NCBI GenBank assembly: GCA_024636955.1
Contig: JAGXGB010000012.1
Location: 1 to 64,000 of the forward strand
Direction: 5' to 3'
DNA length: 64,000 nucleotides
DNA from: Bacteroidales bacterium
Lineage (GTDB): Bacteria; Bacteroidota; Bacteroidia; Bacteroidales; Lentimicrobiaceae
Shown here: positions 26,179 to 36,775 of the stretch, piece by piece
Position numbering within the stretch: position 1 is the stretch's first letter
How the letters are laid out: each line of letters starts with the position of its first letter
Program-made: the position numbers and the translations under genes
The notes under the pieces: generated by a model
What the model was told of the DNA's origin: nothing
Database searches by the model: none
The model's input: only the letters and a program-made list of their open reading frames with translations

Positions 26179-27048
26179 ATGGAACACATTATGGGAAATG
26201 AAGTTGAATTACAGGCATTGATCAGTTTGATTGATGAGCCCGATTATGTCTCATTTGCCAAAGTAAGAGAGCAAATCTTTAATATAGGCCCTCCTGCCGT
26301 GCCTTTGCTTGAAAATGCATGGGAAAATACGTTTGACTCAGGAGTACAACAGAGAATTGAAGATATCATTCATAATATTCAGTATAATCAGCTTCACTTT
26401 GATATAGTTAAGTGGGCGCATTTTAAAGACTCCGACTTGCTTGAAGGTTATATTCTTTTCACTCGTTATCAGTTCCCTAGCCTCAATGTTGAGAAACTAA
26501 GAGAGCAAATATTACACTTGCGGCGAGATATTTGGATAGAGTTGAATGAAAACCTGACTGCGTTGGAAAAGGTTAAAGTTTTGAACCATATTATCTATGA
26601 TCACTATAAATTTATCTTGCCGGAGAAGCAGGAAGCTGACGCGAAATATCTTTTCCTGAATAATTTACTTGACACTAAAATCGGGTATTCGATTTCTATT
26701 GGAATCCTTTACACTATTCTGGCACAAAGCCTTGGTATACCATTGTTTGGTTTGCTACTTCCTGGTGAGCGTTATTTTTTAGCGTGGATTGAACCGGAAG
26801 TAAGTGCAGGGTCAAGGGTGAAGTTTTGTGTAAACCCTGAAAATAAAGGGGGTATTTTTACTAAAGAGGAGTTGGTAACTTTATTAAAGAAGTTGAAATT
26901 CCCTTCCCAGGAAAACTATTTTATTCCTCTGAAGCCCACTGTTATAATTGAAAAGCTGTTTGAAATGCTTTCCTATTTATATGCAACTGCGGGAGATACT
27001 GCCAAACAGGATGAAATAAACAGACTTCGTGATGCTTGTGCTGAATAA
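26179..27048 (+). CDS. SirB1-like transglutaminase-fold protein
   Basis: The protein has 289 residues. The N-terminal part (about 1-85) has HEAT-like helices (VPLLENAWENTFDSGVQQRI). The centre matches the Transglut_core2/SirB1 family: ALEKVKVLNHIIYDHYKF, FLNNLLDTKIGYSISIGILY, then LGIPLFGLLLPGERYFLAW. The usual catalytic cysteine of transglutaminases is replaced by Ser/Ile in SISIGIL, so it is likely a non-enzymatic member, as is common in SirB1 relatives. Function unknown. It lies 73 bp after the nucleoside phosphorylase and is closed by a terminator. Confidence 0.78.
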   Translation: MEHIMGNEVELQALISLIDEPDYVSFAKVREQIFNIGPPAVPLLENAWENTFDSGVQQRIEDIIHNIQYNQLHFDIVKWAHFKDSDLLEGYILFTRYQFPSLNVEKLREQILHLRRDIWIELNENLTALEKVKVLNHIIYDHYKFILPEKQEADAKYLFLNNLLDTKIGYSISIGILYTILAQSLGIPLFGLLLPGERYFLAWIEPEVSAGSRVKFCVNPENKGGIFTKEELVTLLKKLKFPSQENYFIPLKPTVIIEKLFEMLSYLYATAGDTAKQDEINRLRDACAE

Positions 27049-27106: not shown

Positions 27107-28486
27107 CTATACTAATCCTTGAGCAAGCATTGCTTCAGCAACTTTAACAAAGCCACCAATATTCGCACCCTTCACATAGTTGATAAATCCGTCGGATTCA
27201 GTGCCATATTTTACGCAATTTTTATGAATGTTAATCATGATGTTATGAAGCTTTTCATCAACTTCTTCACGAGACCATGACATACGCATAGAGTTCTGGG
27301 TCATTTCAAGACCAGATGTTGCAACACCACCGGCATTGGCTGCTTTCCCTGGACCGTATAGAATTTTAGCTTTGAGATAAATTTCAATTGCATCAGGAGT
27401 TGAAGGCATATTTGCTCCTTCTGAAACTAGGAAACAACCGTTACTAACCAAAGTCAATGCATCATTACCATCAATCTCATTTTGAGTTGCACTAGGAAGT
27501 GCGATATCACACTTAACTTCCCATGGGCGTTTTTCGAAAAAGAATTTAGCATCAGCATATTTATCGCAATATTCTCTGATTCGCCCTCTTTTTATATTCT
27601 TAAGATGCATAACATATGCAAGTTTCTCATCATCTATTCCATTTGGGTCATAGATATAACCCTCTGAATCGGACATAGTAACAACTTTTCCTCCAAGTTG
27701 AGTTACTTTCTGTGTTGCATACTGTGCAACATTTCCAGAACCAGAAACAGTGCAAATCTTGCCTTTGAAATCTAATCCCCGAGTCTTAAGCATTTCATTA
27801 GCAAAGTATACCTGACCGTAGCCTGTTGCTTCCGGACGAATAAGGCTACCACCCCAGTCAAGTCCTTTCCCAGTGAGTACGCCGGTAAATTCATTTCGAA
27901 TTCTTTTATACTGACCAAACATAAAGCCTATCTCACGACCACCAACACCAATATCTCCAGCAGGAACATCTGTATCAGGTCCAATATGACGTGATAATTC
28001 TGTCATAAAACTCTGGCAGAATCGCATAACTTCATTATCTGACTTCCCTTTGGGATCAAAGTCACTACCGCCTTTTCCACCACCCATAGGGAGTGTAGTC
28101 AAGCTATTTTTTAATACTTGCTCAAATGCAAGGAACTTTAGAATTCCTAAATTAACAGTGGGATGAAAACGCAAACCACCTTTGTAAGGACCGATAGCAC
28201 TATTCATCTCAATTCTATACCCTTTATTAATCTGGACTTCTCCCTTATCGTCCAGCCATGGCACACGGAACAGGATTACCCTTTCTGGTTCTGCCATCCT
28301 TTCTAAAATTTTGGCTGTTTTGTATTTCGGGTTTTCTTCAATAAAAGGGATGAGTGTCTCAGCTACTTCCCTAACTGCCTGATGAAATTCAATTTCACCT
28401 GAATTTTTAGCAATTATTCTTGCCATAAATTCATCAACTGCCTGTTGATAAGAGTTTGTCGGCATTACTCCTGCAATTTGTGTCAT
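27107..28486 (-). CDS. gdhA: Glutamate dehydrogenase, hexameric type, probably NADP-specific
   Basis: The protein has 459 residues, close to the usual 445-450 of the hexameric enzyme. The dehydrogenase dimerisation domain has KGGLRFHPTVN and the catalytic-lysine motif LPMGGGKGGSDFDPKG near residue 127, then DTDVPAGDIGVGGREIG. The nucleotide-binding domain has VSGSGNVAQYA, and the family motif GGVATSGLEMTQNSMR follows. It catalyses reductive amination of 2-oxoglutarate with ammonia. The motif GSGNVAQYA followed by Ser at the cofactor-specific position suggests NADP, though this is inferred from close family resemblance. It is a single-gene unit with a terminator. Confidence 0.95.
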   Translation of the reverse strand: MTQIAGVMPTNSYQQAVDEFMARIIAKNSGEIEFHQAVREVAETLIPFIEENPKYKTAKILERMAEPERVILFRVPWLDDKGEVQINKGYRIEMNSAIGPYKGGLRFHPTVNLGILKFLAFEQVLKNSLTTLPMGGGKGGSDFDPKGKSDNEVMRFCQSFMTELSRHIGPDTDVPAGDIGVGGREIGFMFGQYKRIRNEFTGVLTGKGLDWGGSLIRPEATGYGQVYFANEMLKTRGLDFKGKICTVSGSGNVAQYATQKVTQLGGKVVTMSDSEGYIYDPNGIDDEKLAYVMHLKNIKRGRIREYCDKYADAKFFFEKRPWEVKCDIALPSATQNEIDGNDALTLVSNGCFLVSEGANMPSTPDAIEIYLKAKILYGPGKAANAGGVATSGLEMTQNSMRMSWSREEVDEKLHNIMINIHKNCVKYGTESDGFINYVKGANIGGFVKVAEAMLAQGLV

Positions 28487-28669: not shown

Positions 28670-31600
28670 ATGCAGTCTTCTGATAACAGAGATGATACTT
28701 CCATGCACAATACTGATGTGCATAAAATTCTTAATGAAACAAGGGAACGTATTAAAGAACTTAAAACTATTAATGAAACTACAGCAATTCTAAAAAAGGA
28801 ACGGCCTGTCGAAGAAACTCTTCAGGAGATTTGTTCCGTAATTCCTGATGGTTGGCAATATCCCGAGGCAACTGTCGCGAGGATTACATATGATGATTTA
28901 GTTTTTACATCCAGGGGTTTTGTTGAAACCGAATGGAAGCTTGAGCAAAGGTTTGAATCAATTGATAGTATACAGGGCATTATAACGGTTTGTTATCTTC
29001 GCAAATTTTCAGATATGGATGAGGGGCCATTCCTGAAAGAGGAGCGAAACCTTATTATTAACCTGGCGAGTTTAATTGAAGGTTATCTTAATGGAATAAA
29101 AGGAAAGGAAGAGAAATTTTTCAGTAATGAAAGACTCAAAGAACTTTCTGCAATAAATCAAACAACTGCTATCCTCAGGGTGGGCAAACCTATTGAAGAA
29201 GCATTACACCAGATTTGTTTGATTATACCGAAAGCTTATCAGTATCCTGAATTTTGTGTTTGCCGAATTAGATATGCTGGTATTGAATGCAGGAGTGCAG
29301 ACTTTAGGGAAACACAATGGTCACAAAAGCAACCATTCGAAACTATTGACAATCAAAGTGGTTGCATAGAAGTTTTTTATTTAAAGGCATTTCCATCTAA
29401 TTATGAAGGCCCTTTTCTTGAACAAGAGAGGCATTTGATTATCAATATAGCTAATCTTATCTCCGGTTACATAAATAGTATTAAGGGGAGAGCTTTTATT
29501 AAGATGGATCCGTCCACTGAGTCAACTCAAAAAGGGAAGCAAGACGAGAATGTAAAATATAGTCGTCAACTTCTGCAAACATTTATGAACAGGAATAATT
29601 ATAATCGGGATATTTATCATGATTTGATGCCTGTAAAAGTTAAAGAAATTCTCCTTGTTGCTACTCTTTACGATGCGTATATCATTGAGAAAGAAGGACG
29701 TTTTTCAGAGCATGTTCTTGGTGAGTACTACCAGCTTAGTTTGAGTTCAATGCCTCGTATAACTGGTGTTTCTGCTGAAAATGAGGTTTACGAACAATTA
29801 GAAAAAAAGCATTATGACCTTGTTATAATCATGATGGGTGTGGATAAGCAGCACCCTGTAGAATTGAGTAAAAAAATAAAAGAGCTCTATTCTTATATTC
29901 CAGTCTTTTTACTCCTTAACAGCAATACCGATATTGCTGAATTTGAGCACGCACCAGAAAAGCTTACATGGATAGATCGAATCTTTATATGGAACGGTGA
30001 TTCAAAAATTTTCTTTGCAATAATCAATTATTTGGAAGATAAGATAAATGTTGAGAATGATACTAAGATTGGTATGACCCGGGTAATTTTACTTGTTGAG
30101 GACTCTCCAAAGTATTATTCTCTGTATCTCCCTATACTCTATAAAATTGTGCTTGAGCAAACTAAGCACATTATTGAAGATGTTACTACAGATGAACTTT
30201 ATAGAATACTACTTTTAAAAGCGCGGCCCAAGATCATGCTTGCTTCAACTTATGAAGAAGCAATGCATGTATTTAGCAAGTATAAAGATTACTTCTTATG
30301 TTTGATAACTGATGTTAAATTTAAAAAAGACGGTAAGCTGAATCCTATAGCAGGAATTAAACTTGTAAAGCAAATGCTCAAAGAGAAGAAGGATTTGCCT
30401 ATAGTGCTTCAATCATCAGATTTAGAAAATGTTAATTATTCTTATGAGCTTCAGACAGCATTTATAAATAAAAATTCTGATTCACTCCTGCAGGATCTAC
30501 ATAACTTTATTACTCATTATCTTGGATTTGGAAATTTCATCTATCGCAATAAGGAAGGACAACAAATTGCTGTTGCAAGAAACCTTAAAGAGTTTCAAAC
30601 TTTTTTGGCAACAATACCAGATGAATCTCTTTTGTATCATGCCAGAAAGGATCATTTTTCATTATGGTTGATGGCAAGGGGTGAAATACAGGTTGCAAAA
30701 ATTCTTAGTCCTGCGAAAGTCTCAGATTTTAAAAACCCCGAAAGTCTTAGGGAATATATGATCAATGTTATTCAACATTTCAGAAATGAGCAGAATATTG
30801 GCAGGGTAGTTCCTTTCGAAAAACAATCAATTACAGATGAAAGAAACATTCTATCTCTTTCTGATGGAGCTCTTGGAGGAAAGGGAAGAGGCCTGGCATT
30901 TGTAAGTACACTGATCTATAATTATGATTTTTCAAGCCACATTCCTAACATAAAAATTCGTACACCTAAAACCTCAATTATTGGAATAGAGGAGTTTGAA
31001 TATTTTATAGCTCATAATAAATTGTGGGATATAATTCTCAATGAACCGGACTATGATGCTCTTAAGAAGCGATTCATAGAAAGTACGCTTACCTCAACAC
31101 TCATAAAGAAGCTTCGACTGATAATCAGTAAAATCAGCAGGCCCCTGGCTATACGGTCATCGGGGCTATTCGAGGATTCATTAAATCAACCATTTGCAGG
31201 AATATTTGAAACATACCTTATTCCGAATAACCATCCTGATAAAGAAGTTAGGCTCACACAACTGATGGATGCTATAAAACTTGTTTTTGCATCTGTTTAT
31301 TCTAAAACTGCGCGCAGTTATATAGAGGCTGTAAATTATAAGATAGAACAGGAAAAAATGGCAGTTGTCATACAAGAAGTGGTTGGTAATCAATATGGTG
31401 ATGTTTACTACCCTCATATTAGTGGAGTTGCACAGAGTTATAATTATTATCCCTTTGGCCATATGAAACCTGAAGAAGGTTTCTCAGTAATAGCACTTGG
31501 CCTTGGTCGTTATGTTGTTGAAGGTGAAAAGGCATATCGTTTTTCTCCTTTATACCCAAACCTTGAAATTAATACTCCCAAGGATCAGTACAAATCATCA

Positions 31601-32533
31601 CAGCTAAATTTTTATGCAGTTGATTTAAATAAACATGAAGTTAACCTGCTTGAAGGCGAAGAAGCCGGGTTGAGAAAAATGGATATCGATGAAGCTGAAA
31701 TGCACGGTACTCTTAAGCATCTTGCATCGGTCTATTCTATAGAAAATAACAGGATAAGTCCTGGACTTAACCAACCGGGTCCACGCGTTATTAATTTTGC
31801 AGATATCCTGAAATACAATTATATTCCTCTTGCAAAAACAATAGAAGTTGTGTTGGATGTCGTTAAGGAAGCTCTTGGGTCTCCGGTTGAGATCGAATTT
31901 GCTGTTGACCTTACCAAAGATCAGGATAATAAAGCTACATTTTATCTGTTACAGATAAAACCCTTGATCGGTAATTCAACAGATTATAATATTGATATGA
32001 CCAAAATTAAAGAAGATGAGATACTTCTTTATTCTGATAAAGAGATGGGAAATGGAATTATTGATGATATCTATGATGTTGTTTTTGTAAACCCAGATAC
32101 TTTTGACAAAGCAAAAACAGAAGAGATGGCACAAGAAATTGATAAGATAAATAGTAGAATGATCAATGATAAAAGGAAATATATCTTAATTGGTCCTGGC
32201 AGGTGGGGTACACGCGATAAGTGGATAGGCATTCCTGTTACTTGGCCGCAAATTTCCAATGCCCGCGTCATCGTGGAAACCAGTCTTGAAGGATTCCCAT
32301 TAGATGCATCATCAGGTTCTCACTTTTTCCATAATGTTACTTCAATGAATGTTGGTTACTTTAGCGTTCAGCCTGAAATTTCTGGCAGCTTTATTCGATA
32401 TGACGTACTAAGTAGTCAAATTAATCTTGAAAAAACTAATTATTTTATGATTGCTCACTTCGAAAAGCCACTTACAGTAAAAATGGATGGCAAAAAAAGA
32501 ATTTCTTTAGTAACATACCACACTGGAAATTGA
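28670..32533 (+). CDS. Sensor-receiver protein with PEP-synthase-type ATP-grasp domain
   Basis: The protein has 1287 residues. Residues about 19-146 and 153-279 are two copies of a sensor module (RIKELKTINETTAIL ... IPDGWQYPEATVARI; LKELSAINQTTAIL ... IPKAYQYPEFCVCRI) that I know from histidine kinases. Next is a degenerate receiver-like domain (about 318-440, no phosphorylatable Asp) and a second receiver-like domain (about 470-620, LLVEDSP, LITDVKF, FINKN). From about 727 there is an ATP-grasp domain of PPDK_N type (SDGALGGKGRGLAF, RPLAIRSSGLFEDSLNQPFAG near 823). The C-terminus (about 1150-1287, LIGPGRWG near 1173) is an unfamiliar module. No TSHAAI-type phosphohistidine domain or PEP-binding domain is present. 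Its last 34 bases are duplicated (32512-32580). The next gene is a shorter paralogue. Confidence 0.8.
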   Translation: MQSSDNRDDTSMHNTDVHKILNETRERIKELKTINETTAILKKERPVEETLQEICSVIPDGWQYPEATVARITYDDLVFTSRGFVETEWKLEQRFESIDSIQGIITVCYLRKFSDMDEGPFLKEERNLIINLASLIEGYLNGIKGKEEKFFSNERLKELSAINQTTAILRVGKPIEEALHQICLIIPKAYQYPEFCVCRIRYAGIECRSADFRETQWSQKQPFETIDNQSGCIEVFYLKAFPSNYEGPFLEQERHLIINIANLISGYINSIKGRAFIKMDPSTESTQKGKQDENVKYSRQLLQTFMNRNNYNRDIYHDLMPVKVKEILLVATLYDAYIIEKEGRFSEHVLGEYYQLSLSSMPRITGVSAENEVYEQLEKKHYDLVIIMMGVDKQHPVELSKKIKELYSYIPVFLLLNSNTDIAEFEHAPEKLTWIDRIFIWNGDSKIFFAIINYLEDKINVENDTKIGMTRVILLVEDSPKYYSLYLPILYKIVLEQTKHIIEDVTTDELYRILLLKARPKIMLASTYEEAMHVFSKYKDYFLCLITDVKFKKDGKLNPIAGIKLVKQMLKEKKDLPIVLQSSDLENVNYSYELQTAFINKNSDSLLQDLHNFITHYLGFGNFIYRNKEGQQIAVARNLKEFQTFLATIPDESLLYHARKDHFSLWLMARGEIQVAKILSPAKVSDFKNPESLREYMINVIQHFRNEQNIGRVVPFEKQSITDERNILSLSDGALGGKGRGLAFVSTLIYNYDFSSHIPNIKIRTPKTSIIGIEEFEYFIAHNKLWDIILNEPDYDALKKRFIESTLTSTLIKKLRLIISKISRPLAIRSSGLFEDSLNQPFAGIFETYLIPNNHPDKEVRLTQLMDAIKLVFASVYSKTARSYIEAVNYKIEQEKMAVVIQEVVGNQYGDVYYPHISGVAQSYNYYPFGHMKPEEGFSVIALGLGRYVVEGEKAYRFSPLYPNLEINTPKDQYKSSQLNFYAVDLNKHEVNLLEGEEAGLRKMDIDEAEMHGTLKHLASVYSIENNRISPGLNQPGPRVINFADILKYNYIPLAKTIEVVLDVVKEALGSPVEIEFAVDLTKDQDNKATFYLLQIKPLIGNSTDYNIDMTKIKEDEILLYSDKEMGNGIIDDIYDVVFVNPDTFDKAKTEEMAQEIDKINSRMINDKRKYILIGPGRWGTRDKWIGIPVTWPQISNARVIVETSLEGFPLDASSGSHFFHNVTSMNVGYFSVQPEISGSFIRYDVLSSQINLEKTNYFMIAHFEKPLTVKMDGKKRISLVTYHTGN

Positions 32534-32580
32534 GAAGTCGACCATAACATACCAACACTGGAAACTGAGAAGTCGACCAT
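32512..32580 (+). repeat. Tandem copy of the ATP-grasp gene 3' end
   Basis: Copy 1 (32512-32545, 34 bp) contains the last codons and stop TGA; copy 2 (32546-32580, 35 bp) is nearly identical, with one inserted base and one substitution, and keeps the TGA. The copies are so alike that the duplication must be recent. Confidence 0.95.
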
Positions 32581-32617
32581 ACACAAACAAAAGAATTATT
32601 CAAGAAAGAAAATTAGT

Positions 32618-35587
32618 ATGCACAAGCAGAATGCATTGGACCCTAAAAAGTATTATTTCATTGATACTTCCTTCAACTTATTAATGAAAAGGAGGATCTA
32701 CCATGTATTGTTAATATCAAGTAATTATGATGCTTTCATGCTTGAGGAAGATGGAAGGATAGATGAAACTATCTTTATGGAATACGTTTCGCTAAATCTT
32801 CGGTATCCACCTCAATTCATCAAAGTTAATTCTGAAGAAGAGGCATTTGAAGCATTGAATGACAAAAGTATTGAATTGGTTATTTCAATGTTGACTATTG
32901 AGAAATCAGACAGTTTTGAATTGGCCTCAAGAATTAAAGCAAAATATCCTAAAATTCCATTTGTAATCTTAACCCCCTTCTCTAGAGAAATAAGCATAAA
33001 ATTACGGGAGAAAGACCTAAGTGCAATTGACTATGTTTTCAGCTGGCTTGGAAATGCAGATATACTTCTTGCAATCATTAAGCTGATTGAGGATAAGATG
33101 AACATTGTATCTGATTTGTCACATGGAGTACAGGCAATTATTTTAATCGAGGACAGTATAAGATTTTACTCGAGCTATTTGCCCAATATATACAAGATAA
33201 TATACCGCCAATCGAAAGGCTTTAACACTGAAGGCTTAAATGAGCATCAGAAAATGTTGCGCATGAGGGGAAGACCTAAAATTGTTCTTGCAACAAATTA
33301 CGAAGATGCAGTAAAATTATTTGAAAAATATAAAAATAACTTGTTGGGTATAATTTCTGATGTTAATTTCAAACGAAATGGAGTGAATGATAAAGCTGCT
33401 GGAATTGAATTCGTCAAGTTGGTAAAATCGCAGGATGAGTTCATGCCTATCTTGCTTCAATCATCTGATTCTCGCAACCAGACAATCGCTGAAGAACTTA
33501 ATGTAGGCTTTATCAATAAAATGTCGAAGACACTGTCAATTGAGTTGCGAAACTTTATTAATGAATATTTTGCCTTTGGTGATTTTGTTTTCAGGAATCC
33601 AACTACAAATCGGGAGATTACTCGTGCCTCCGACTTAAAGTCGTTACAGAAGAAGATATTTGAGATACCAGATGAATCACTCTTATATCATATGCAACGA
33701 AATCATTTTTCTAAGTGGTTTAATGCCAGAGCGCTCTTCCCAATTGCTGAAATGTTTAGAGAGGTTTCTGTGACTGAATTTCAAGATATGGATGAGGCAA
33801 AACGATACATATTTGATTCCATAACAGCATTTAGAATTAATAAGGCAAAAGGTGTAATAGCTGAATTTGACAGACAACGCTATGATGAATATTTATCTTT
33901 TGCACGTATTGGACAAGGATCAATAGGTGGGAAAGCCAGAGGATTAGCATTTCTTGATTCACTTATCAAGCGGAATAGATTATTTGAGATGTTTGAAAAT
34001 GTTTCTATCTCTATTCCCCGCACGGTTGTGCTTGGTACTGACATCTTTGATGAATTTATGGAAGACAATAACCTTCATGAAATTGCGCTATCGGATAGGA
34101 CAGATAAAGATATTTTAACTCATTTTGTTCACGCCAGACTTCCTTTCAGGATTCATGAAGATCTCTATACATTTATATCATGTGTAAATAACCCAATAGC
34201 CATCAGATCATCAAGTCTACTGGAAGATTCATATTATCAGCCTTTTGCTGGAATTTACTCAACTTATATGATTCCAAATATAAAGTACAATGATAGAATG
34301 ATGATTGAGAAACTATCGGAAGCCATAAAAAGTGTATATGCATCAGCTTTCTTCAAGGATAGTAAAGCTTATATGTCGGCAACGCATAATATTATTGACG
34401 AGGAAAAGATGGGCATTGTTCTTCAGGAAGTTACGGGTAAGCAATATGCTAATAGATTTTATCCCTGTATTTCGGGAGTTGCACGATCAATTAATTTTTA
34501 CCCAATTTCACCTGAGAAACCAGAGGATGGTATTGCAAACATTGCATTTGGATTAGGAAAGTACATAGTAGATGGTGGTAATGGCCTCCGCTTTTCACCA
34601 AAGTACCCAAAGAAGGTCCTTCAGCTTTCAAGTCCTGATCTTGCTCTTGCCGAAACACAAAAGAGTTTTTATGCACTGGATCTTGATCCTGATCATTTTC
34701 ATCCTGATATTGATGAAACGATTAATCTAATGAAAATGCAAATTTCAGAGGCTGAAGGTGATGGTACATTGAAATTGGTTGCTTCAACCTTAGATTATGA
34801 TAGTTACACTATTGTTGACGGTACACTCTATCCTGGAAGACGAATTATTACTTTTTCGCAGTTGCTAAATCATGGAACCTTTCCATTGGCTGAGATACTT
34901 GCAAAAGTCCTGGAATTAGGTGAAAAGGAAATGGGTAAACCAGTGGAGATTGAATTTGCAGTAAATCTGGATATACCTAAAGGTCAGAAGATTTTTTCCC
35001 TTCTGCAGATCAGGCCTATTGTTAGTAATGACAGAACTGTAAACCTTCGAGTTGAAGATGTCAACAAGGAGGCAGCAATAATCGTCACTAATATGGCATT
35101 AGGCAATGGAATAATAAAAGATATATCTGACTTTATATACATTAAACCCGAATCATGGAATGCCGCTAAAAGTTTGGAAATCGCTGGTAGGCTTGAAGCA
35201 TTAAATGATCGATTTATTGAAGAGAAAAAAAATTATATTCTTGTAGGACCTGGCCGATGGGGCTCATCCGATTCATGGTTAGGTATACCTGTTAGGTGGC
35301 CACAAATATCTGCAGCAAGAGTGATTGTTGAGTCAAGTCTGGAAAATTATAGAGTAGATCCAAGTCAGGGAACTCATTTCTTTCAGAATTTAACTTCATT
35401 TAATGTGGGATACTTTACAATAAACCCACATATTAATGATGGTTATTATGACTTGGACTTCATTTCTTCCCAAACGCCTCTATATGAAGATGAACATATC
35501 AGGCATATTAGATTTGCATCGGTAGTAAGAGTAGAGATTGACGGTAAAAAAGGCACTGGTGTTATATATAAGCCCGATTATAAATAA
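32618..35587 (+). CDS. Receiver protein with PEP-synthase-type ATP-grasp domain, paralogue
   Basis: The protein has 989 residues and is collinear with the last two-thirds of the upstream protein. It has a degenerate receiver-like domain (about 24-135, YHVLLISSNYDAFMLEEDGRI), a second receiver-like domain (about 170-315, IILIEDS, GIISDVNF, FINKM), a linker (about 320-415), a PPDK_N-type ATP-grasp (from about 426, IGQGSIGGKARGLAF; IAIRSSSLLEDSYYQPFAG near 526) and the same C-terminal module (LVGPGRWG near 875, PQISAARVIVE, THFFQNLTSFNVGYF). Again there is no phosphohistidine or PEP-binding domain. Annotation pipelines are likely to call it PEP/pyruvate-binding protein or PEP synthase; the missing domains argue against PEP synthesis. 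It lies 84 bp after its paralogue and 6 bp before the PatB gene. Confidence 0.82.
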   Translation: MHKQNALDPKKYYFIDTSFNLLMKRRIYHVLLISSNYDAFMLEEDGRIDETIFMEYVSLNLRYPPQFIKVNSEEEAFEALNDKSIELVISMLTIEKSDSFELASRIKAKYPKIPFVILTPFSREISIKLREKDLSAIDYVFSWLGNADILLAIIKLIEDKMNIVSDLSHGVQAIILIEDSIRFYSSYLPNIYKIIYRQSKGFNTEGLNEHQKMLRMRGRPKIVLATNYEDAVKLFEKYKNNLLGIISDVNFKRNGVNDKAAGIEFVKLVKSQDEFMPILLQSSDSRNQTIAEELNVGFINKMSKTLSIELRNFINEYFAFGDFVFRNPTTNREITRASDLKSLQKKIFEIPDESLLYHMQRNHFSKWFNARALFPIAEMFREVSVTEFQDMDEAKRYIFDSITAFRINKAKGVIAEFDRQRYDEYLSFARIGQGSIGGKARGLAFLDSLIKRNRLFEMFENVSISIPRTVVLGTDIFDEFMEDNNLHEIALSDRTDKDILTHFVHARLPFRIHEDLYTFISCVNNPIAIRSSSLLEDSYYQPFAGIYSTYMIPNIKYNDRMMIEKLSEAIKSVYASAFFKDSKAYMSATHNIIDEEKMGIVLQEVTGKQYANRFYPCISGVARSINFYPISPEKPEDGIANIAFGLGKYIVDGGNGLRFSPKYPKKVLQLSSPDLALAETQKSFYALDLDPDHFHPDIDETINLMKMQISEAEGDGTLKLVASTLDYDSYTIVDGTLYPGRRIITFSQLLNHGTFPLAEILAKVLELGEKEMGKPVEIEFAVNLDIPKGQKIFSLLQIRPIVSNDRTVNLRVEDVNKEAAIIVTNMALGNGIIKDISDFIYIKPESWNAAKSLEIAGRLEALNDRFIEEKKNYILVGPGRWGSSDSWLGIPVRWPQISAARVIVESSLENYRVDPSQGTHFFQNLTSFNVGYFTINPHINDGYYDLDFISSQTPLYEDEHIRHIRFASVVRVEIDGKKGTGVIYKPDYK

Positions 35588-35593
35588 AGATTC

Positions 35594-36775
35594 GTGAGAA
35601 TATACAATTTTGATGAAGTTATAGAACGCAGCAACACTGCAAGTGTTAAATACGATCTGCGCAAGATGTTTTTTGGAACCGAGGAGGTTATACCCATGTG
35701 GGTAGCTGATATGGATTTTAAAACGCCGCCGTTTATTCTTGATTCTATAAAAGAACGGGCTGAGCATCATGTTCTCGGATATTCATTCCGACCACCTGAA
35801 TACTATAATGCCATTGTTAACTGGTTACAGCGTCACCATAACTGGATTATAAAGTCTGAATGGATTTGTTTTTCTCCTGGTATTGTGCCTGCGCTAAATC
35901 TCGCTGTTTTGGCTTTTACAAAACCTGGAGACCGCATAATTGTACAACCACCGGTTTACTTTCCCTTTTTTAGTGCTGTAAGTAGCAATAATCGTGTATT
36001 AAGCTACAATCAACTACAGATGGTGACTGACAGATACCAAATGGACTACAAGGGACTTGAGAAACTTTGCATGAAGGGTGCTGCAATGATAATTATAAGC
36101 AATCCGCATAATCCCGGAGGAAATGCATGGAGAGAGGATGAACTGGAACATTTGGCTGATATCTGCCTCAAGTATGATGTACTTATGGTGTCAGATGAGA
36201 TTCATGCTGACCTTGTAAATGTTGGATACAAGCATACAGTACTGGCCTCTCTTAGTAATGCAATTGCAAAGAAAACCATCACCATGACATCAGCAAGCAA
36301 AACCTTTAACCTTGCTGCATTATCAACGGCATCAGTTATAATATCTGACAACAAACTTCGAAAGACATTTAATAATGTAGTGCAAAACTTGCATATTGAT
36401 ATGGGCAATGTGTTCGGTACTTTAGCTACAATAGCAGCATACAACCAAGGCGATAAGTGGTTAGAACAATTAATCCAATACATAGATGGTAATATCAACA
36501 TACTTGATCAAACCCTGAAAAGCGATATTCCTGAAATTAAAATGATCAGACCTGAGGCTACGTATATGGCATGGCTCGACTGCTCTATGCTTGATATGGA
36601 TGATAAGGCATTAAACAACTTTTTCATTAAAGAAGCAGGTTTAGGACTCAATCCGGGTATACAATTTGGCAAAGGTGGAAGTTCATATATGAGAACAAAT
36701 CTTGCTTGCCCAAAATCAATATTAGAGAAAGCTTTAGGCCAATTAAAGACTGCACTTGAGAAATATAGAAAGTAA
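35594..36775 (+). CDS. PatB/MalY-family C-S lyase (cystathionine beta-lyase-like)
   Basis: The protein has 393 residues and matches the PatB/MalY group of PLP fold-type I enzymes: IPMWVADMDFKTPPFI, LGYSFRPPEYYNAIVNWLQRH, SNPHNPGG, VSDEIHADLV (Asp201) and TSASKTFNLA with Schiff-base Lys236. It should cleave cystathionine or related C-S bonds, giving homocysteine or thiols. The first codon is GTG at 35594, 6 bp after the upstream stop; there is no better ATG at the conserved N-terminus. Its tight spacing suggests co-transcription with the ATP-grasp pair. Confidence 0.92.
   Translation: MRIYNFDEVIERSNTASVKYDLRKMFFGTEEVIPMWVADMDFKTPPFILDSIKERAEHHVLGYSFRPPEYYNAIVNWLQRHHNWIIKSEWICFSPGIVPALNLAVLAFTKPGDRIIVQPPVYFPFFSAVSSNNRVLSYNQLQMVTDRYQMDYKGLEKLCMKGAAMIIISNPHNPGGNAWREDELEHLADICLKYDVLMVSDEIHADLVNVGYKHTVLASLSNAIAKKTITMTSASKTFNLAALSTASVIISDNKLRKTFNNVVQNLHIDMGNVFGTLATIAAYNQGDKWLEQLIQYIDGNINILDQTLKSDIPEIKMIRPEATYMAWLDCSMLDMDDKALNNFFIKEAGLGLNPGIQFGKGGSSYMRTNLACPKSILEKALGQLKTALEKYRK

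Follow-up and report, generated by a model that had tools for sequence, protein, structure and literature searches.

A receiver/ATP-grasp protein family of Bacteroidota and its genomic coupling to glutamate dehydrogenase

The combination of a receiver domain with a pyruvate phosphate dikinase (PPDK) output is already on record: a passage of one domain census mentions a Bacteroides-like combination of REC with pyruvate phosphate dikinase (PMC5847659), and a passage of another lists pyruvate phosphate dikinases among the outputs associated with aspartate-less receivers (PMC4395418). Here we describe two adjacent genes of this kind, encoding proteins A and B, together with the protein family to which they belong; they lie in a window (the whole stretch of DNA analysed) of 64,000 nucleotides from a Bacteroidales bacterium of the Lentimicrobiaceae (GenBank assembly GCA_024636955.1, contig JAGXGB010000012.1, positions 1 to 64,000). 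All the characterised PPDK_N enzymes known to us act on small molecules (phosphoenolpyruvate (PEP) synthase, PPDK, rifampicin phosphotransferase and PigC) or on glucan. The family of A and B, surveyed in 296 genomes, all of Bacteroidota, is coupled in the genome to glutamate dehydrogenase (GDH), a main link between ammonia and carbon metabolism. This coupling is well supported and makes a role of the family in glutamate and ammonia control likely.

Association of the family with glutamate dehydrogenase genes

Family members come in several forms. The A and B types have approximately 990-1290 residues (one member has 1558), the short forms approximately 580 residues and no receivers, and the long forms approximately 1060 residues (some 780-1030) with a different N-terminus. 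For the 49 genomes that carry the family, all 84 family genes and all 114 ELFV genes were counted. Of the 84 family genes, 65 have GDH at a distance of no more than 1.5 kb, where approximately 0.4 would be expected if GDH genes were scattered at random over uniform genomes of 3.8 Mb; the distances, taken from domain matches extended to the likely gene ends, are approximate, and related genomes are not independent. For 54 of these 65 coupled genes, GDH precedes the family gene on the same strand, in some long forms with a short gene in between. By form, as typed by frame length, the coupling comprises 40/50 genes of the ~1000-residue type, the single A, 9/11 short and 15/22 long genes, and it extends to 40/49 carrier genomes and 13/14 taxonomic families. 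Among the neighbour clusters of the fetched loci, some of which are duplicated or incomplete, GDH ranks first with 55 loci, the next cluster having 21.

Three GDH sequence groups (2, 5 and 6) directly adjoin family genes, and a GDH of group 3 occurs in the same loci as family genes, farther away, in L185, L187 and L199. The two genes may be arranged on the same strand, with GDH upstream or downstream, divergently (the window, L180 and L218) or convergently (L181 and L182). Three GDH groups in several arrangements imply that the coupling is not one frozen gene order. The gap between family gene and GDH is 26-443 nt among the 29 pairs listed, with one overlapping pair (L150). The distances among family proteins correlate with those among their paired GDHs (39 pairs, Mantel r 0.79, 0/2000 permutations), also when the ~1000-residue type is taken alone (27 pairs, r 0.70, 0/2000 permutations), and for the five loci that hold two pairs each, the true pairing comes first of 32, shared species history contributing to these correlation tests. 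In the gut species Parabacteroides distasonis (L180) and in Phocaeicola massiliensis (L218), GDH is divergent from the B orthologue; the P. distasonis protein, annotated only as 'PEP/pyruvate-binding domain-containing protein', thereby becomes a candidate GDH regulator. No GDH gene was found within 8 kb of the family gene of Prevotella sp. F0039 (L217).

In the window, GDH is encoded 183 bp upstream of A in divergent orientation, and A and B, both on the plus strand and 39% identical, are separated by 84 bp. An earlier note, made from the letters of this DNA without database searches, had described adjacent paralogues of 1287 and 989 residues, which is what the open reading frames show; the GDH gene next to A had escaped it. 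Tandem paralogy recurs in other carrier genomes: in the 49 carriers each of the 11 short genes adjoins a long one, and eight carriers besides that of the window have two ~1000-residue copies within approximately 8 kb, so that paired paralogues are a theme of the family. In L100 and L065, family genes are interrupted by an in-frame stop or a split frame.

Domain architecture of A and B

The ATP-grasp profile PF01326 scores 131 bits in A and 141 bits in B, with a cut-off of 27, and PF00072 matches both proteins, with 36.1 bits in B (over the cut-off of 30.2) and 25.3 bits in A (under it). These searches bear out the two receiver-like domains and the PPDK_N domain proposed in the earlier note, and support its view of A and B as sensory proteins whose output is an ATP-grasp domain. 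PEP synthases align with the family profile at E 3.7e-19, and a search of the PDB with this profile retrieves eight chains named phosphoenolpyruvate synthase, some of which we take to be rifampicin phosphotransferase. In an alignment of 93 sequences, consisting of B, its orthologues and A-type paralogues, K439, R530, E536, D537, E777, E779 and Q797 (B numbering) of the ATP-grasp domain are invariant; presumably these residues have the ATP-binding roles of their counterparts in PPDK and PEP synthase. The LQI[RK]P motif has Lys in A and Arg in B. As judged from these residues, the ATP-grasp domain of both proteins is apparently intact.

A Pfam search of A and B with E≤1 yielded no match to PF00391 or PF02896, in agreement with the earlier claim that neither the phosphohistidine domain nor the barrel of PEP utilisers is present, nor did the Pfam search reveal an NTP_transf_2 or GlnE domain in either protein. 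The PEP synthase equivalog TIGR01418 scores 36.5 bits in A and 34.9 bits in B against a cut-off of 739.75. Both proteins end approximately 175-180 residues past the ATP-grasp match, in a conserved domain of approximately 165 residues with the motif GxGRWGS...SxG[TS]HFF, which the earlier note had overlooked. The absence of a phosphohistidine domain thus holds at the profile level, while A and B, with a conserved His-bearing C-terminal domain of their own, are not bare ATP-grasp proteins. The 77 members compared, the most distant of which has 24% identity to B, share as invariant positions GxGRWG, SxG, FF, one Gly and one Glu; one Asp and the HFF His are conserved in at least 90%. A scan of 188 sequences, not deduplicated, found the motif His in 185 and Gln in two, which are one protein represented twice, while one broken fragment lacks the motif. 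Neither Pfam nor NCBIfam has a family that matches two or more of the 77 domains. A profile of the domain, with up to 12 candidates scored per genome, found 84 places in 49 of the 296 genomes; their number per genome equals that found with the ATP-grasp module profile (84), inside whose matches they all lie, and with all 84 within family genes, no free-standing copy was seen in the 296 genomes.

The position of this domain directly after the ATP-grasp domain, as in PEP synthase, raises the alternative that it is a very divergent swivelling phosphohistidine domain, A and B being PEP synthase relatives that lack the PEP barrel only. To the eye, the succession of its motifs (GNG start, ILV strand, A-x-IV strand, G-[TS]-H, helix, strand) resembles that of PF00391, and the alignment to PEP synthase extends into it, the two His remaining unpaired. 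Against this, hhalign gives a probability of 0.2% for its relationship to the phosphohistidine domain, a score reached by 14/60 column shuffles, and none of the 77 members matches PF00391 at E≤10. We do not claim homology, and find the alternative, which is compatible with the explanation preferred below, somewhat doubtful. When the PDB was searched with this profile (hmmsearch), seven matches up to E 10 were obtained, no PEP-utilising enzyme among them; VAMP7 longin-domain chains were borderline (E 0.019-0.045), followed by plasmepsin. The VAMP7 matches cover positions 85-149 of the profile (A2), i.e. approximately 35330-35520 in B.

At the front of A a sensor module is present twice, its copies having 52% identity (E 6.1e-38), as the earlier note had noticed; in 12 full-length A orthologues from other genomes of the window's genus, the alignment to A begins at residues 150-154, which corresponds to the second copy. 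The earlier note also placed the module in histidine kinases, which is borne out by one case, L263, a hybrid histidine kinase of 1708 residues with eight PAS stretches, in which the module (E 1.9e-7, 26% identity) stands alongside HisKA and HATPase_c. The 1558-residue family member (L262, 3714-8387) has three copies, and the gene abutting it looks, from its start, like Ppx/GppA. A 294-residue protein (L257, 1045-1926) unites an A-type module with a nucleotidyltransferase domain; L258:1060-1920 resembles it by look, and both genomes have A. Next to both of these module-nucleotidyltransferase proteins there is a gene that looks like a metallophosphoesterase.

Response_reg covers two stretches in B. 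At receiver 1, Met91 of B aligns with the phospho-acceptor Asp of the receiver 9qih_A and is nearly invariant in the 93 sequences, which identifies receiver 1, at the sequence level, as an aspartate-less receiver (pseudo-receiver), a point missed in the earlier note. In receiver 2, E178, D179, D248, S282 and K301, the full catalytic set of a receiver, are invariant in the 93 sequences. The linker between receiver 2 and the ATP-grasp domain of B has a weak similarity to DUF5752, below the cut-off; PF19027 (DUF5752) matches 6/9 further members scanned with an E-value of 0.01 or less, and three of these matches exceed the cut-off.

The invariance of the ATP-grasp and receiver 2 catalytic residues argues for chemistry and speaks against the idea that the family supplies a non-catalytic or ATP-driven assembly factor or allosteric partner, tuning the folding or oligomer state of GDH without covalent transfer. 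The tight spacing of family and GDH genes, including the overlapping pair, would suit such a partner; GDH genes, however, occur without the family in all of the 20 non-carriers listed, and we regard the idea as quite improbable.

Table 1 Features of the locus on the window
Feature	Position	Strand	Evidence or content
GDH (ELFV family, 459 aa)	27107..28486	-	PF00208 E 2.1e-91, PF02812 E 3.8e-52
Protein A, 1287 aa	28670..32533	+	sensor module x2, pseudo-receiver, receiver, linker, PPDK_N, C-terminal GRWGS/HFF domain
Sensor module copy 1 of A	28742..29107	+	52% identity to copy 2, E 6.1e-38
Sensor module copy 2 of A	29117..29566	+	sequence match to copy 1 and to relatives elsewhere
PPDK_N ATP-grasp domain of A (residues 734-1107)	30869..31990	+	PF01326 E 6e-38
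C-terminal GRWGS/HFF domain of A	32015..32515	+	profile A2 match E 1.3e-70
Protein B, 989 aa	32618..35587	+	pseudo-receiver, receiver, DUF5752-like linker, PPDK_N, C-terminal GRWGS/HFF domain
Receiver 1 of B (~residues 29-165, limits approximate)	32702..33112	+	aspartate-less, Met91 at phospho-acceptor position
Receiver 2 of B (~residues 171-316, limits approximate)	33128..33565	+	PF00072 match residues 211-307
PPDK_N ATP-grasp domain of B (residues 435-815)	33920..35062	+	PF01326 E 8.5e-41
C-terminal GRWGS/HFF domain of B, His920 in SQGTHFFQ	35072..35575	+	profile A2 match E 2.0e-73
PatB-family C-S lyase (patB)	35594..36775	+	TIGR04350, 501 bits vs cut-off 340, E 1.6e-150

A possible role in glutamate and ammonia control

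Starting from the observed domains, conserved catalytic residues and genomic coupling to GDH, we tentatively propose that A and B respond to signals and regulate glutamate/ammonia metabolism, acting chiefly on GDH through ATP-dependent phosphotransfer; we hold this possible, at slightly less than even chances. Signals would enter A through the sensor modules, and both A and B through receiver 2, which is phosphorylatable in principle. The state of the N-terminal half would gate the ATP-grasp domain, with ATP bound as in PEP synthase, and a phosphoryl (or nucleotidyl) group would go on to GDH or to a GDH-associated acceptor, the conserved C-terminal His perhaps serving as relay; this transfer would switch GDH activity. 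Modification of GDH by the ATP-grasp domain is the mechanism that we consider most likely, by analogy with the covalent control of glutamine synthetase and on account of the intact ATP-grasp and receiver residues. We infer that the ATP-grasp domain is active, that GDH is its direct target and the C-terminal His an intermediate, as well as the sign of the effect. The earlier note had envisaged a phosphotransferase with an unknown acceptor; the ATP-grasp output stands, and gene linkage now narrows the acceptor to a candidate, GDH.

A fuller version of this proposal, in which GDH is covalently modified by a receiver-gated ATP-grasp protein kinase with a novel His-bearing phospho-carrier domain, alongside nucleotidyltransferase-bearing relatives and, in some lineages, a phosphoesterase as possible eraser, appears doubtful to us. 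An NTP_transf_2 domain is found at the C-terminus of two of the four long forms scanned (L152, 6374-9562, and L142, 4641-7808; not in L143 and L151). Both of these fused relatives sit behind a GDH gene. In ten loci (L061, L062, L065, L079, L144, L152-L156), B or a long form has as its neighbour a gene for a calcineurin-like phosphoesterase (PF00149 in the two members scanned), a possible antagonist; no member of this cluster occurs in the window.

Several observations weigh against GDH as the object of the family's action. Carriers are a minority (49/296 genomes), 9/49 have no GDH link (G014, G047, G109, G132, G160, G196, G216, G236 and G287), and the four carriers of family f33 are all without it. 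GDH is present in 20/20 listed non-carriers, all of the window's class, therefore it does not need the family in general. When 54 GDHs from carrier loci were compared with 13 from non-carriers, five columns differed mildly and no convincing acceptor residue emerged. The HFF His is replaced by Gln in one B orthologue (L027, 7983-10982, the same as L132), and to this are added the hhalign result reported above and the share of species history in the distance correlations. Within 1.5 kb of B or A, 79 Bacteroidales B loci, many of them incomplete and often with A outside, have GDH in 11 and glutaminase in 5; when only the 63 loci that extend 1.5 kb or more to each side of B are counted, GDH or glutaminase is present in 11. 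The GDH link is looser in Bacteroidales. Furthermore, 35/49 carriers also have GlnE (0/4 in the window's class), so the family is not a simple GlnE replacement, and this role was ruled out.

Among the fetched loci, the link to glutaminase is seen in a single genus, which likewise counts against the proposal. Within that genus it speaks in favour: glutaminase (PF04960 in the one member scanned) is divergent from B in nine loci from eight genomes, all of the window's genus (L030, L032, L035, L037/L203, L066, L201, L205 and L207). Where both A and B loci of a genome of this genus were fetched, glutaminase is next to B and GDH no more than 1.1 kb from A in 3/5 genomes (G296, G300, G308); of the remaining two, G305 has glutaminase and a distant GDH, and G307 neither. 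In the same 79 Bacteroidales loci, a cytidylate-kinase-like gene occurs in 10, a metallophosphoesterase in 3 and patB in 2.

Such neighbours bear on another reading, that of a receiver-gated metabolic enzyme activating a small molecule of the 2-oxoglutarate/glutamate/pyruvate circle, with GDH adjacent through a shared pathway and itself unmodified. Glutaminase and patB near family genes are consistent with it, as are the intact ATP-grasp residues and the small-molecule or glucan substrates of the PPDK_N enzymes that we know of. Neither a PEP/pyruvate barrel nor another recognised substrate domain is present, however; the coupling is to several GDH groups, not to one pathway, and the sensor and receivers in front are typical of regulation. 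Gene neighbourhood cannot separate enzyme modification from a shared pathway, which also counts against our proposal; the metabolic enzyme nevertheless seems unlikely.

The earlier note suggested PatB, encoded 6 bp downstream of B in the window, as a partner or target, and the ammonia that PatB releases would fit a nitrogen theme. The patB gene adjoins a family gene in the window and in L064, L080 and L212, and lies within 3.5 kb in L196, in both orientations; among the 79 Bacteroidales B loci, however, it does so in only two (L212 and the window), compared with GDH at 65/84 family genes. PatB is ruled out as a general main partner, and its being a partner or target at all is very improbable.

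Other genes of these loci can be mentioned briefly. In L003, L006, L007, L012, L016, L017, L019, L020 and L021, A and B are separated by a set of genes that look, by sequence, NuoE/NuoF/formate-dehydrogenase-like and are often accompanied by a rubrerythrin-like gene. Near the GDH gene of the window, a SirB1-like transglutaminase-fold protein (PF13369) is encoded at 26179-27048, with a relative only in L032 of 80 related loci. PADLOC gave no defence match, and 62 pattern matches in viral contigs included no relative. Among plasmid records, full-length matches to B occur only in three, all of Bacteroidota; with a long form as query, no match spanned 80% of its length among the matches listed (20 of 65 records). 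The scan of genome contigs kept the best 80 of 211 matches, and the genome searches covered Bacteroidota.

If our proposal of GDH modification holds, many Bacteroidota would have a nitrogen switch of this kind, and an ATP-grasp branch for which we know only small-molecule and glucan substrates would gain a member acting on protein. The GDH link points to a candidate for the control of GDH in many Bacteroidota, and the conserved His of the C-terminal domain may carry phosphate. Baggio and Morrison reportedly found, in 1996, trans-acting gene(s) near gdhA of B. thetaiotaomicron; covalent GDH modification, if true, could explain them, should they belong to the family. That 1996 study is cited in a passage of PMC4539542.

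Comparison with described systems

In the literature searched, which leaves out most subscription papers, we found no description of a link between GDH and the family. The response regulators with a pyruvate phosphate dikinase output recorded in the censuses (PMC5847659, PMC4395418) share the receiver and PPDK output of A and B; the passages concerned give no bacterial function, C-terminal domain or GDH link. With the present work, the receiver-PPDK output of these censuses gains a partner, GDH.

PEP synthase (pyruvate, water dikinase) and rifampicin phosphotransferase have a homologous ATP-grasp domain, the ATP-binding residues of which are kept in A and B. In contrast to these enzymes, A and B have no recognisable PF00391 or PF02896 domain, carry receivers in front, end in a different conserved C-terminal domain and are linked to GDH. 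The nitrogen-control enzymes of the GlnE/GlnD type are alike in the proposed role, the covalent control of an ammonia-handling enzyme; a nucleotidyltransferase domain is found in two of the long relatives scanned but not in A or B. Finally, receiver 1 resembles the aspartate-less receiver domains in having Met at the phospho-acceptor position, whereas in A and B another receiver, with all its catalytic residues, comes after it.

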